This document shows, in pieces, positions 11,103 through 17,823 of a DNA stretch of 64,000 nucleotides. The DNA is taken from assembly GCA_016288795.1 (NCBI GenBank), contig JAEELI010000012.1, forward strand, positions 1 to 64,000. Reading direction: 5' to 3'. Position numbers and translations under genes: made by a program. Below the pieces are notes generated by a model that had not been told where the DNA came from, did no database searches, and worked only from the letters and a program-made list of their open reading frames with translations. The first letter of the stretch is position 1; every line of letters starts with the position of its first letter. Origin of the DNA: Caryophanales bacterium (GTDB lineage Bacteria; Bacillota_I; Bacilli_A; RF39; UBA660).

Positions 11103-11114
11103 GAACTTACACAA

Positions 11115-11144
11115 AAAAATCTCACAAATAAATGTGAGATTTTT
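11115..11144 (-). terminator. Terminator after the SH3/membrane protein operon
   Basis: Stem AAAAATCTCAC / GTGAGATTTTT with an 8-base loop; on the minus strand it is followed by seven T residues. It overlaps the stop codon of the 118-residue membrane protein. Confidence 0.85.
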
Positions 11145-11499
11145 AGTAAATTATCATATTAATGAAAATACCAATAATATAGGACATTGCATTCAGTATA
11201 AGAGATAATATAATTGGATTAATCTTATTATATTTTAAATACTTTTTATAAATTAATCCTTCTACCAAAACTACAATTATCTCCATGGGAATTATTAATA
11301 TCTTTCTCCATTTCAAACCAAATTCAAGGTTAATATATAATGATAATGATACTAATAGTGGATTAGTTAATATGTTTACTAATACTACATTAATAATATC
11401 TTTTTTATCTCTAACTTTTAAAGCTAGCGCGGTTAAAACTTCAATTATTAATGTACAACTCAAACTAATTAACAAGATTTTTAATAAAAACCAAATCAT
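11143..11499 (-). CDS. Uncharacterised integral membrane protein (118 aa)
   Basis: I do not recognise a named family. Four membrane segments are likely (about residues 2-25, 38-57, 67-84 and 95-117) with a charged loop KVRDKKDI after the first. It starts inside the end of the SH3 gene (ATGA overlap) and is the last gene of the envelope operon, so it probably acts with the SH3-domain surface protein. There is no catalytic motif. Confidence 0.65.
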   Translation of the reverse strand: MIWFLLKILLISLSCTLIIEVLTALALKVRDKKDIINVVLVNILTNPLLVSLSLYINLEFGLKWRKILIIPMEIIVVLVEGLIYKKYLKYNKINPIILSLILNAMSYIIGIFINMIIY

Positions 11500-12671
11500 T
11501 GTTCTATATTATCTTTTTTTACTTCTTTTTTCTTATTAACAAGCTTAATTGTTACTATTGTAACTGCTACTAGTAAAATGACTCCACCAACAATATCTAA
11601 TATCAATTCATTAAGTGGTAATCCACTAGGATCAGTATATACAGGTTCATCTTTAGATGGCTCTGTAGGGGTTTCAATATCACCTTCATAACCTAAAGAT
11701 TTAATAAATTCTTCTGATCTAAAGCCTTGAACACCATCAGGATAATTAATTTTTTCATGCCATAGACTATCTCCACTCTCTGATTCGTAGTATATCCATC
11801 CTTTTATACCATCTACTTCTATATATAGCCAAGAATCATAATCGTGTGCTAAATGTTGAATAACTTCTGTATTGCTTGGAATAGTTTTAATAACTTCACT
11901 TTTTGAATCAGCAGTAGTATATAATTTGAACTCTTTTAACAACACAGCCTTTCTACTTTCATAATAGCATTGATAATCATCAAAATAGACTTTGCCTTCT
12001 TTATCATTTATTTTTATATAAAATGAGTTACTCCATGGATCTAATTGAAGAGTATTCTCTAATAAACTATTTGCTTTAACTGTGCCGATAACTTTTCCAT
12101 TACTATCTTTTATATCAACATCTCTAACAGTCATACATACTGTATTAGGTTCCATTCCAACTGCACCTTCTAAGATATTAATCCATCCAGAGGTTCCGTT
12201 ATAAGTAACGTATAAATATGCATCTTGATAATATTTATAATTTAATTTTGTTCCTTTTGGAATAGTTACCCCTGTGCCTTTATACGCTTCTGCTGGACCT
12301 TTTTTAATTTCTACTTTATCTTTTAATACAATTAAATATTTTTCTTTTTCAAGTGTGTTAGTAGTGCCTTTTTTTAAACTAGCTTCTAAATCAAATACTT
12401 CCTTTAAAGGGGTTATATCTTTAATATAAACCAAATATTCAGTTCCATTTAAAGAAAAAGTTCCAGTATTATCATATTCAAATGATATTGTTATTTTTTC
12501 ATTATAATCTAGATGTCCAGCAACTATATGACCATTTGTCTCGTAGTAATCAACTCCATTCGGATTAGTTACAACGGCTTCGTATTCTGGTATCATCGGT
12601 GCCCCCATATCAGCATGAACTATCAATGGGAATAATAATAAAACTAATAAACTTACAATAATTTTTTTCAT
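11496..12671 (-). CDS. SH3-domain surface protein with signal peptide and C-terminal membrane anchor
   Basis: 391 residues. A signal peptide (residues 1-20, cleavage likely after VHA) is followed by a conserved-looking DMGAPMIPEYEAVVTNPNGV, then about three bacterial SH3-like repeats ending in GWINI (near 168), a middle copy with FYIKINDKEGKVYF (near 225) and GWIYYE (near 300). A Pro/Asp/Glu linker (TPTEPSKDEPVY) leads to one membrane helix (about 358-378) and a Lys-rich tail. Predicted topology: most of the chain outside, tail inside. SH3b repeats often bind cell wall. There is no LPxTG sorting motif. The ribosome site AAGGAGATAG overlaps the end of the 47-residue gene. Confidence 0.8.
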   Translation of the reverse strand: MKKIIVSLLVLLLFPLIVHADMGAPMIPEYEAVVTNPNGVDYYETNGHIVAGHLDYNEKITISFEYDNTGTFSLNGTEYLVYIKDITPLKEVFDLEASLKKGTTNTLEKEKYLIVLKDKVEIKKGPAEAYKGTGVTIPKGTKLNYKYYQDAYLYVTYNGTSGWINILEGAVGMEPNTVCMTVRDVDIKDSNGKVIGTVKANSLLENTLQLDPWSNSFYIKINDKEGKVYFDDYQCYYESRKAVLLKEFKLYTTADSKSEVIKTIPSNTEVIQHLAHDYDSWLYIEVDGIKGWIYYESESGDSLWHEKINYPDGVQGFRSEEFIKSLGYEGDIETPTEPSKDEPVYTDPSGLPLNELILDIVGGVILLVAVTIVTIKLVNKKKEVKKDNIEQ

Positions 12672-12674
12672 ATC

Positions 12675-12818
12675 CTATCTCCTTTTCAATTCTTTTCTAA
12701 CTAAAAATATTGTAATAATAATTATTAATATTGTTGTAATAATTGTTAAAGTAAACGGCCAAAACCCTCGTTTTAAAATGTAATCTTTAAATATTAACTC
12801 AACCGCTTTCACGATCAT
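12675..12818 (-). CDS. Small single-pass membrane protein (47 aa)
   Basis: A short reading frame lies between the MFS gene and the SH3 gene: it starts MIVKAVELIFKDY, has one hydrophobic helix (TLTIITTILIIIITIFLV) and ends KELKRR. It overlaps the MFS gene by 20 bases and stops 3 bases before the SH3 start codon, so it fills the gap exactly. Charge pattern fits an N-out or re-entrant single-pass helix with a basic cytoplasmic tail. No family is recognised. It could be chance, but frame length, hydrophobic composition and tight fit favour a real gene. Confidence 0.55.
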   Translation of the reverse strand: MIVKAVELIFKDYILKRGFWPFTLTIITTILIIIITIFLVRKELKRR

Positions 12819-13881
12819 CTGCCTTTCTAATTATATATAACAATATTAATAAACAAATTATAGTAGATACAACAATGACTAATGCATTAGCCATAAATGT
12901 AATTAACTTAATGAAAAATATTGGGGCCGTTCCTAAGAATAAGCCAATAGTGGTTAGACCAAAGGCTAACCCAGGGGTTTTCTTTAAAACCGAGACTAGT
13001 AACCCCAAAGTAATAGACATAGTCATACTAAATAAGGTAATTCCTATTAAGGATACTATCATAACATTATCTCCAAATAATAGGAATGGTAATGAAAATA
13101 ACACACTCATGATTGCTACTTTTCTTATTCCAAATGCATCACTTAAGATACCTCCAAAGGCTTTTCCAAAGCCCATGGCAAAGTATAATAATAATGCTTG
13201 AAGAACTGTTTTATTCCAGCTAGTCGGAATACCATATCCCATATATCCTCTAACAATGACTACAAATACTGCTAATAGAATAATTATTCCTGGTTTAACT
13301 TTAGGATTATGATAATTAAATGATTTACAAGCATCCTCTTGATTCTTTATATCATTTTTATAGTATTCAGCTAGCAAAACAAACGGAATTATTGATAATC
13401 CTAATAAACTAATAAACCAATAAGAGATTCGCGTTTTTGCAAGAAGTTTTCCTGTTATAACTCCAAATGATCCTCCACTTACAAAAATAGCACTAGGAGA
13501 CAATTTACCATTAGATGACTTTAATGTAACTTCAGCTCCAGACACATGGATACATGCGTTACCAAGGCATAATATTATGAGTTCTGTAAATGTTCCTGGA
13601 AGTAGATTTAAAAAATATGTAGTAAATCCAAATACCAATAAAACTGTTCCAATTATACCAATATTTATTTTTGGGTGTTTATCACTCCAATAACCTATAA
13701 TTGATTGAGGAACAAATGCTGCCATATCATAAATAAATGGCGTTAACCAAAGAATTATACTATCGCCAAATACCTTAGCAAGAACAAAAAAGCATAAAAC
13801 TTCAGTCACGTAGTGAATATAAAAATATAGATAACCTGCCCCAATATTAGGCATTTTCATAGTCTCAATTACTCTCTTCAT
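12799..13881 (-). CDS. MFS-type membrane protein, uncharacterised
   Basis: 360 residues with about 11-12 predicted membrane helices. The segment FVPQSIIGYWSDKHPK near residue 57 is the MFS loop 2-3 motif (G-x-x-x-D-R/K), and GKAFGGILSDAFGIRK near 245 is the second-half copy, as in sugar-phosphate or Fsr-like efflux proteins. LCLGNACIHVSGAEVTLKSS near 105-125 may form part of the translocation path. Substrate unknown. It is translated with the HTH gene upstream (3-base gap) and the 47-residue membrane peptide downstream (overlap). Confidence 0.75.
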   Translation of the reverse strand: MKRVIETMKMPNIGAGYLYFYIHYVTEVLCFFVLAKVFGDSIILWLTPFIYDMAAFVPQSIIGYWSDKHPKINIGIIGTVLLVFGFTTYFLNLLPGTFTELIILCLGNACIHVSGAEVTLKSSNGKLSPSAIFVSGGSFGVITGKLLAKTRISYWFISLLGLSIIPFVLLAEYYKNDIKNQEDACKSFNYHNPKVKPGIIILLAVFVVIVRGYMGYGIPTSWNKTVLQALLLYFAMGFGKAFGGILSDAFGIRKVAIMSVLFSLPFLLFGDNVMIVSLIGITLFSMTMSITLGLLVSVLKKTPGLAFGLTTIGLFLGTAPIFFIKLITFMANALVIVVSTIICLLILLYIIRKADDRESG

Positions 13882-13884
13882 ATA

Positions 13885-14115
13885 TCACCTACTATTTAAA
13901 TAGATTATATCATAATTTCTCTTTATCATCCAATATCTATTATTACCATTTCTATTCAATTCTATATAATTATTATCCTTAAGTATTTTAAAATATCTCC
14001 TTATAGTTCTTTCAGATACATTATATCTTGTAGCTAAGCTATTTTCCTGAATATTATCGAAATAATCTATTTCATAAATAATACATATTAAAAGCACTTC
14101 ATTTAACTTTTTCAT
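13885..14115 (-). CDS. Small winged-helix/HTH regulator
   Basis: 76 residues. ENSLATRYNVSERTIRRYFKIL (about 24-45) is a helix-turn-helix of the HTH_11/DeoR type, followed by a short wing (NYIELNRNGNNRYWMI). There is no ligand-binding domain. It heads the envelope operon, so it may regulate that operon itself. The 73 bases upstream hold AGAGGGAGAG as ribosome site; I see no clean -35/-10 pair and no clear terminator for the preceding gene there. Confidence 0.75.
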   Translation of the reverse strand: MKKLNEVLLICIIYEIDYFDNIQENSLATRYNVSERTIRRYFKILKDNNYIELNRNGNNRYWMIKRNYDIIYLNSR

Positions 14116-14188: not shown

Positions 14189-15208
14189 TTAATCTTCATA
14201 GCAGTAAAAAGTTTCATAATTATTCCAATTACCATCCGTAAAACACCCCTGGTCTGTTATTTGACTCACACAATCTCTATTTTCTTCCCTAGAAATCCGA
14301 CAATAGGTAGTTTCATCTTCACATATTAGCCAGCTTTCTCCTAAACTACAAGTCGCTCCTAAGGCTTCCATTTCAGCTTTATATACTAATCTATCATGCC
14401 AAGGATTAGCGCGAAAGCACACTTCGCTTCCAGAAAAAGAACCACAAATCTCGTCATAAGTATTGGCAGAATATCCTTTTAGATAAGCTGTTAATCCAGC
14501 ATTGCTTCTTAAGGGGGATGATATATACCCATTTGATGATTTTGTAGAATCATATACATAATAATATGGCTCTGAAGCAATGTTGCAAGAAAAGGAATTT
14601 ACGGTAAATGTAAATGTAATATCCTTGTTTTTTAATACAGATTGATCAACTGTTCCTTTATTATATATATTAAATCCAGCCTTAATTATATTTGATTTGC
14701 TTGCGGTTATACCATTTAATTCTCCAGTATAGGTTATTGGGAATAAGTTGGCTGTGTAAAAAGAATACCTTTTATGGTTAATATAAAAATGAATATCGGT
14801 ATCAGATTTGTTTTCCCAATTTTGAAATGCTGTGTATAGATTATTTGTGCCAGTAGCCGAAACATTCATGGTATATGAACAATTATATGTTCCTGGGCCA
14901 GTCACTTGAGTATGAGCCAATTGAACATAGGACCAAGTATCTAATCCAAATGTTCCATTTTCATTTAAATAATAGAATCCACCATTACCTAACATCATTT
15001 GTTCAGAACTTAGTGTTGCTGTAACGTTAGTTACGTCACTTATTAGAGAAACGCTTCCAACTTGTGGAGCGCTAGCACTAATAGTTTTTGACCCAAAACT
15101 ATTAGTAGATGTCACACTAAAATAAGCATAAGATGCTCCGGCTACTAAAACTAGCAAACTTAAAAAAACTATTGAAGCATATAGGATTATTTTCTTTCTA
15201 TTATCCAT
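14189..15208 (-). CDS. TasA/camelysin-like exported protein with Cys-rich C-terminus
   Basis: 339 residues. The N-terminus (RKKIILYASIVFLSLLVLV then A-G-A-S-Y-A-Y-F-S) is the SipW-type signal peptide of TasA/camelysin family proteins, which form extracellular fibres or act as surface proteins. The body is Ser/Thr/Asn-rich with probable beta structure. The last 110 residues carry about ten Cys (EICGSFSGSEVC, TCSLGESWLIC, TTYC, RDCVSQITDQGC and the terminal CYED), which suggests disulfide bonds outside the cell. No sipW-like peptidase gene is in the window. RBS AGGAGATAG. Single gene between the rpsR terminator and the HTH gene. Confidence 0.7.
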   Translation of the reverse strand: MDNRKKIILYASIVFLSLLVLVAGASYAYFSVTSTNSFGSKTISASAPQVGSVSLISDVTNVTATLSSEQMMLGNGGFYYLNENGTFGLDTWSYVQLAHTQVTGPGTYNCSYTMNVSATGTNNLYTAFQNWENKSDTDIHFYINHKRYSFYTANLFPITYTGELNGITASKSNIIKAGFNIYNKGTVDQSVLKNKDITFTFTVNSFSCNIASEPYYYVYDSTKSSNGYISSPLRSNAGLTAYLKGYSANTYDEICGSFSGSEVCFRANPWHDRLVYKAEMEALGATCSLGESWLICEDETTYCRISREENRDCVSQITDQGCFTDGNWNNYETFYCYED

Positions 15209-16409: not shown

Positions 16410-16473
16410 CAAAATTATAATGATTAAACTATCATAATTTGCTATAATATCTATATGTGGAGTGTATGATATT

Positions 16474-17823
16474 ATGAAAAAAATAATTACTTTTCTATTA
16501 ATTATAATATTTCCTATATTTGCTTATGCAGAAGATATAACAAGTTCTTCTAAAATAACTATTAATGGAAGTTCCTATGAAAAAATAAAGGATAATAATG
16601 AGAATTCTTATGTTAGTATAAATAAAGAATCAGAATTAAAAATTAGTAATGAAAAAGATATTAAAGGGTTATATGTAATATATGAATTAAAGAGTGTTCC
16701 TGGGGTTTTAAACGCCAATGATACATTAATTAATATTGGGGAAAATGGATTTCTTCATGAATATATAGATTTAAATAAGAATAGTTCTAAGGAAATATCT
16801 ATTAAATATAATGAAAACGTTAAAATTGGAGAAATTTATGTTCTATCAGAAGGAGAGTTACCTAGCTATGTTGAAACATGGAATAAACCTTTAGAAAAGG
16901 CAGATTTACTTCTTCTTTCAACTCATAGTGATGATGAACAGTTATTCTTTGCAGGATTAATGCCATATTATGTTGCTAAAGGAGCTAAGGTCCAAGTAGT
17001 ATACTTTACTAATCATAATGATAAACCTAGTAGATTGCATGAACAGATTCATGGTTTATGGACAGTGGGTATAACAAACTATCCTATTATCGGTTTTGTT
17101 CCTGATGCTTGGTCTGAAAGTTTAGATGAAGCTATCACAAACTTAAAGAAAGCTCATTATACTCAAGACGATACAATTAAATACCAAGTAGAGATTATTA
17201 GAAGATTTAAACCTCAAGTAGTTGTAGGACACGATGAAAAAGGAGAATACTCCCATGGCCAACATATATTAAATACTTGGGCGTTGGAAAAAGCTTTAGA
17301 ACTAACTAATGACAAATCATATGACGAACAATCTGCTAATAATTATGGTGTATGGGATGTGCCAAAAACATACCTTCATTTATATGAAAAAAATAAAATT
17401 GTCATGAATTATGATGAACCATTAGAGTATTTTAATGGTCAAACTGCTTATGAAATGTCAAAAAAAGGATTTAGTAAACATTCTAGTCAACAATGGACAT
17501 GGTTTACTAAATGGTTAACTGGCCTAGATTATCATGGAAATGGAACTGCTTATACTAAAGCAACAGAAATTACTAAGTATTCTCCATTAGAATATGGATT
17601 ATATAGAACTTTAGTTGGAGAAGATAAAGAAAAAAATGATATGTTTGAAAATCTTACTCTTTTAAAAGATCAAAAAGATAAGAAAGAAGATAAAAATATT
17701 ATAGATGTAACTATTGAAAGAATTGTTAATAATGGTGGATTCAATTATTACTATCTACTATTTGGGGGAGCATTTCTTCTATTGTTAATAATTATAATAC
17801 ACAAAAGAAAAAAGTATAAATAA
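16474..17823 (+). CDS. Secreted, membrane-anchored PIG-L family deacetylase
   Basis: About 449 residues. A signal peptide (residues 1-20, cut after AYA) is followed by a beta-rich N-domain and a PIG-L/LmbE domain: LLLLSTHSDDEQLFFAG (metal-binding H-x-D-D; Ser replaces the usual Pro) near residue 147, VVGHDEKGEYSHGQH near 250. A C-terminal membrane helix (YYLLFGGAFLLLLIIII) and Lys/Arg tail anchor it. PIG-L enzymes remove N-acetyl from GlcNAc sugars; here the active site is outside the cell. I start at ATG 16474 with GGAG 11 bases upstream; a GTG 12 bases earlier overlaps that site. A TATAAT box lies at 16443-16448. Confidence 0.85.
   Translation: MKKIITFLLIIIFPIFAYAEDITSSSKITINGSSYEKIKDNNENSYVSINKESELKISNEKDIKGLYVIYELKSVPGVLNANDTLINIGENGFLHEYIDLNKNSSKEISIKYNENVKIGEIYVLSEGELPSYVETWNKPLEKADLLLLSTHSDDEQLFFAGLMPYYVAKGAKVQVVYFTNHNDKPSRLHEQIHGLWTVGITNYPIIGFVPDAWSESLDEAITNLKKAHYTQDDTIKYQVEIIRRFKPQVVVGHDEKGEYSHGQHILNTWALEKALELTNDKSYDEQSANNYGVWDVPKTYLHLYEKNKIVMNYDEPLEYFNGQTAYEMSKKGFSKHSSQQWTWFTKWLTGLDYHGNGTAYTKATEITKYSPLEYGLYRTLVGEDKEKNDMFENLTLLKDQKDKKEDKNIIDVTIERIVNNGGFNYYYLLFGGAFLLLLIIIIHKRKKYK

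Follow-up and report, generated by a model that had tools for sequence, protein, structure and literature searches.

An MFS transporter gene with distant kinship to Fsr is linked to genes of a four-helix membrane protein family in two bacterial classes

A conserved cassette of four genes, encoding an MFS protein, a 47-aa peptide, an SH3 protein and a 118-aa protein with four membrane helices (4TM), was identified in a 64,000-bp stretch of DNA (the window) from the 0.98-Mb draft genome of a gut bacterium. Judged by its sequence, the MFS protein is a distant relative of the fosmidomycin efflux pump Fsr of Escherichia coli. In all 31 places in which the MFS gene was found among the genomes searched in two classes of bacteria, it had a 4TM gene as its neighbor, which argues, short of proof, against single-component action of the cassette MFS. 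We tentatively propose, with slightly more doubt than conviction, that the cassette encodes a multi-part membrane transporter, i.e. an exporter of the Fsr kind whose accessory subunits are obligate and include one exposed at the surface.

The cassette is part of a set of five minus-strand genes at positions 11143-14115, which was confirmed in the ORF listing of the window (Table 1). Calculated from the coordinates in the 5' to 3' direction of the operon, the HTH and MFS genes are separated by 3 bp, the MFS and peptide genes overlap by 20 bp, the peptide and SH3 genes are again 3 bp apart, and the SH3 and 118-aa protein genes overlap by 4 bp, in agreement with the tight packing reported in a preliminary description of this region. 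The strong terminator placed there at the end of the operon is also borne out, as none of 200 shuffled sequences folded as well as the hairpin. A consensus terminator scanner gave no call for this structure, probably because its stem extends into the T tail. The operon is flanked by rplI (10605 onward) and, upstream, by a gene for a 339-aa protein (14189-15208, minus strand), which has an N-terminal hydrophobic segment and matched nothing in Pfam or NCBIfam at E ≤ 1. On the opposite strand, at 16462-17823 (+), a secreted PIG-L-type deacetylase is encoded (Pfam PF02585, 41.8 bits), which ends in a hydrophobic segment and a basic tail.

Table 1. Coordinates of the operon genes and of the terminator in the window
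Feature	Position	Strand	Basis
Winged-helix HTH protein, 76 aa	13885..14115	-	Pfam HTH_11 above cut-off; neighbor, not a conserved member
MFS transporter, 360 aa	12799..13881	-	AlphaFold2 model, PDB matches, distant Fsr kinship
Single-span peptide, 47 aa	12675..12818	-	Present in 52/65 cassettes with enough downstream DNA
Secreted SH3 protein, 391 aa	11496..12671	-	Pfam SH3_3; 75-member cluster in 63 loci
Four-helix membrane protein (4TM), 118 aa	11143..11499	-	79-sequence alignment, AlphaFold2, no Pfam family above cut-off
Intrinsic terminator hairpin	11108..11150	-	-14.9 kcal/mol, z -5.8

The AlphaFold2 model of the MFS protein (pLDDT 95.1) has an ordinary MFS fold. Among PDB structures, 192 matched it at E ≤ 0.001; the top 50 were MFS transporters or MFS-like carriers, e.g. 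ENT1 (6ob6), and TM values relative to the query reached 0.71 among the matches listed. The Pfam family MFS_1 gave 19.2 bits with the window protein, below its cut-off of 33.4, and matched 46 of 73 relatives at E ≤ 0.001 (best 4.1e-16). The MFS alignment takes 73 of 96 matches, selected by a filter on length and 80% identity. When E. coli MFS proteins were compared with the MFS profile, Fsr (b0479) scored 45 bits (hhalign, 97%), while LplT, EmrD, MdfA and SetA scored at most 3.3 bits where listed, and YajR and Bcr were not listed by HMMER. With hhalign, the six other E. coli MFS proteins stayed at or below 16.5%, the next after Fsr being YajR (16.5%).

Fsr and the cassette MFS have in common H34, Q77, H131 and a G-G...D motif in the second half of the protein, with histidines in TM1 and TM4 of both. 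Two further residues, R211 and K240, are invariant across 92 MFS rows. They align with S247 and T280 of Fsr, in which they are not kept, and the substrate of the cassette MFS therefore need not be that of Fsr. The conserved arginine and lysine hint at an anionic substrate.

For the 118-aa protein, AlphaFold2 predicted four helices (pLDDT 96.4). Residues T16, E20, N46, E73, E80 and N103 are invariant in an alignment of 79 sequences, which comprises 78 of 79 rows filtered from 91 matches (length and 80% identity) plus the protein of locus L025, the second copy in L124 being omitted. None of the 79 members matched a Pfam family above cut-off (three single weak matches, best E 0.0034), and NCBIfam gave no match for the proteins of the window and L025. 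Comparisons with solved structures revealed no clear known fold: the best E value was 2.0 with Foldseek and 0.77 by sequence, and the best VIA-align Z of 6.9 falls within the noise range of helical bundles; weak or absent matches of this sort are no proof of a new fold. The basic residues of the protein lie between helices 1 and 2 and between helices 3 and 4, and in fusion proteins (see below) a secreted ectodomain precedes helix 1. The N-terminus is therefore probably outside, which would place the conserved polar residues in the middle and inner part of the membrane. As far as shown by the libraries and literature searched, 4TM is an undescribed family.

The MFS gene is present in 7 of the 98 genomes of the window's family, each time with a relative of the 118-aa protein gene close by. 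Across 247 genomes of the class Bacilli, the MFS model had matches in 14 genomes and the 4TM model in 52, and in each of the 14 places a 4TM relative adjoined the MFS gene. A second, clostridial class (that of G325, a Mogibacterium-labelled MAG; 245 genomes) yielded 17 places in 16 genomes with the MFS model, at E up to 1e-25, and 39 places in 36 genomes with the 4TM model; here the MFS gene adjoined a 4TM relative in 17 of 17 places. Neighboring pairs were matched by reading the two tables for genes on the same strand within 1.4 kb. Because the MFS models were built from MFS matches alone, the linkage is not built into the search. In one genome (G163) the 4TM gene precedes the MFS gene. Given its frequency in both classes and the lack of a Pfam family above cut-off, the 4TM domain appears to represent a common membrane protein family without a name or a function.

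Gene content was determined in 65 loci, i.e. those among 81 (the window and the best 80 of 443 relatives) with at least 2.2 kb of DNA downstream of the MFS gene; the 16 loci excluded were 15 with short downstream DNA and one (L119) in which no MFS was found. The peptide was present in 52 of the 65 loci, a relative of the 118-aa protein in 62 and an SH3-type protein in 59. The commonest order in the relatives is MFS, peptide, 4TM, SH3-type protein. Among the 62 loci with 4TM, the SH3-type gene follows it in 47, precedes it in 10 (the window included) and is lacking in 5. Over 93 loci, the MFS gene recurred in 87, 4TM in 74 and the SH3-type gene in 63, and no further neighbor was found in more than 12. 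Four loci (L019-L022), being the same places as L050, L091, L081 and L111, respectively, were dropped from the neighbor, motif and distance-correlation counts. A secreted protein of ∼656 aa is encoded downstream of the cassette in 5 of the 93 loci (L063:8716-10692, L080:8809-10779 and three others). In locus L176 (genome G322) the cassette looks broken, the MFS matches being short ORFs only and the 4TM ORF having 70 aa.

The MFS and 4TM proteins have evolved in parallel. Their distances correlate with r 0.80 over 86 loci and 0.63 over the 74 close ones, and none of 2,000 shuffles gave a correlation as high. Of the five genes, those for the MFS, peptide, SH3 and 118-aa proteins stay together in distant genomes, and the HTH gene does not stay with them. 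The co-occurrence of the four genes makes a partner complex of the MFS protein, also suggested in that description, the natural reading. Linkage in two classes, correlated distances and the domain fusion described below together make a physical complex of the cassette proteins likely.

The SH3 protein of the window is composed of a signal peptide, an ADMGAP motif, SH3 stretches, a C-terminal TM segment and a basic tail. Pfam SH3_3 was detected in two stretches (37.1 bits; cut-off, 27). In the window's group, an AD...P motif is present in 68 of 75 SH3-type proteins and, among the remaining ORFs with 150 aa or more, in 3 of 598; 73 of the 75 have the C-terminal TM segment with the basic tail. 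This motif count was made on homology clusters (the SH3-type cluster has 75 members in 63 loci); an earlier count of 67 of 80 was biased because its proteins had been picked partly by the motif. The SH3 protein of L019 has shrunk to a secreted single-span protein of 81 aa that bears DVAAP. Clostridial cassettes often have as the partner a single-span peptide with D-V-x-x-P or an SH3-like ectoprotein, and in a few of them (e.g. L197) the filter found no such partner. A D/N-x-x-P motif, predicted to be extracytoplasmic, is common to the 4TM partners.

The 47-aa peptide matched no Pfam family above cut-off. In the window its gene begins within the end of the MFS gene, with an overlap of 20 bp, and such overlaps are frequent in relatives. 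It was not found in 13 of the 65 cassettes with at least 2.2 kb of downstream DNA, and several distant cassettes have no such peptide between MFS and 4TM.

The 4TM domain is not confined to the MFS cassette. At the thresholds used, 43 of 57 4TM places in the Bacilli and 22 of 39 in the class of G325 had no MFS match, although 4 of the 43 contain an MFS ORF or a fragment of one. The 4TM protein therefore cannot be solely a part of the MFS system. In 44 proteins (counted in 53 loci among ORFs with 200 aa or more, with the 4TM domain starting after residue 90) the domain forms the C-terminal half behind a secreted ectodomain. These fusions comprise (i) 34 of a GPK type (e.g. ADMGPKPS), (ii) 7 with NSAEPP-type starts, and (iii) 3 others of a similar kind. 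Scans of three GPK-type fusions against Pfam and NCBIfam gave no match at E ≤ 0.1. Fusions of ∼240-320 aa are found in L142, L146, L147, L150, L152-L155, L157 and other loci, and in L143, L148, L149, L151 and L156 the 4TM gene is unfused and forms a pair with the gene for a lipoprotein that contains NSPAP or a similar sequence. A common ancestry of the GPK-type and SH3-type ectodomains was considered and set aside: the hhalign match (96% over ∼45 columns) covers the signal peptide and was therefore not relied on.

According to one alternative, which we regard as rather doubtful, the D/N-x-x-P ectoprotein and 4TM form an envelope module in its own right (for anchoring, assembly or ion binding) that is used by the MFS protein in some lineages. 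In keeping with this, 4TM plus an ectodomain, as one chain or as a pair, is commoner without the MFS gene than with it, and an SH3 and 4TM pair lacking the MFS gene is present in genome G094. However, this view leaves unexplained why the searches of the two classes revealed no MFS gene lacking 4TM. It is unlikely that the cassette is a surface sensor, whose ectoprotein would bind a ligand of the envelope or the outside, with 4TM relaying the signal and the MFS protein acting as a gated transporter or receptor-like partner. The ectodomains do vary widely (SH3, GPK and NSAEPP types, NSPAP lipoproteins) while 4TM is kept, as for interchangeable heads, but genes for an output, such as a kinase or a sigma factor, do not recur next to the cassette, and the HTH gene is not conserved.

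The HTH protein, which matches Pfam HTH_11 (28.3 bits; cut-off, 25), had been suggested as the regulator of the system. This role as a conserved regulator was rejected. No HTH relative was found near other cassettes, apart from one match of 19% identity (E 0.025) in L117, and in G088, a genome of the same genus without the MFS gene, a 47%-identical HTH gene lies by itself, directly upstream of rplI. The arrangement in G088 indicates that the cassette probably landed next to a resident HTH gene, separating it from rplI; alternatively, G088 may have lost the cassette. The HTH gene is a neighbor that may or may not control the cassette.

An operon of convenience, in which unrelated membrane genes are co-transcribed, would fit the tight spacing of the five genes, a common feature of small genomes, but is strongly disfavored by the linkage in 31 of 31 places in two classes and by the correlated MFS and 4TM distances, and we consider it highly improbable. 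A phage defense or mobile cargo system, which the patchy distribution (7 of 98 family genomes, and absence from G088) might suggest, is very improbable and was rejected, since none of the four cassette proteins had a PADLOC match at E ≤ 0.01 (weak HTH-type matches came from the HTH protein alone) and the MFS protein had no match among 72,556 plasmid and 50,697 phage records. Two fused 4TM proteins likewise had no match among the plasmid records. Wide horizontal transfer was also rejected: the MFS tree, for which organism labels were taken from MAG titles and grouped by hand and in which bootstrap is not settled, mostly clusters by label (10 changes over three groups, whereas shuffles gave 24.5); for Clostridia and for Bacilli, 8 or more changes are forced in each case.

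In the multi-part transporter that we favor, the Fsr-like MFS protein would be the transport unit and 4TM an obligate accessory subunit within the membrane. Two single-span proteins predicted to have an outside N-terminus, namely the 47-aa peptide and the SH3 protein, which starts with ADMGAP, would complete the complex, and the SH3 part would extend to the cell wall. Export is the first guess in view of the kinship to Fsr, and with the conserved arginine and lysine also considered the most likely job would be the proton-gradient-driven export of a small anionic compound. The occurrence of the 4TM domain without the MFS gene and of cassettes in which no peptide was found count against this reading, and the linkage may also stem from common regulation. 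A broader possibility, toward which we are somewhat more skeptical, is that 4TM with a D/N-x-x-P ectodomain constitutes an unnamed Bacillota-wide module, building obligate multi-subunit MFS machines or acting alone, by a mechanism undescribed for any MFS system.

The MFS protein itself is of a known kind, while its linked partners are undescribed in the libraries and literature searched; among the papers retrieved, judged by their listings, none was recognized as dealing with the MFS/4TM module. With bacterial SH3 surface proteins the window protein shares SH3_3 above cut-off, but its cassette family is distinguished by the common AD...P start and the C-terminal TM segment with a basic tail. 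Small accessory peptides of transporters are known, such as AcrZ, and the 47-aa peptide resembles these in its very small size, its single membrane span and the position of its gene next to that of a transporter. The usual view of MFS transporters is that they function alone, and a subfamily that searches of two classes did not turn up without 4TM would provide a clear example of a multi-subunit MFS transporter. The Fsr of Sinorhizobium meliloti is reported to be a proton-dependent efflux pump whose loss causes fosfomycin sensitivity, and is termed a single-component transporter (PMC12095868). In contrast to that protein, the cassette MFS comes with 4TM and bitopic partners.
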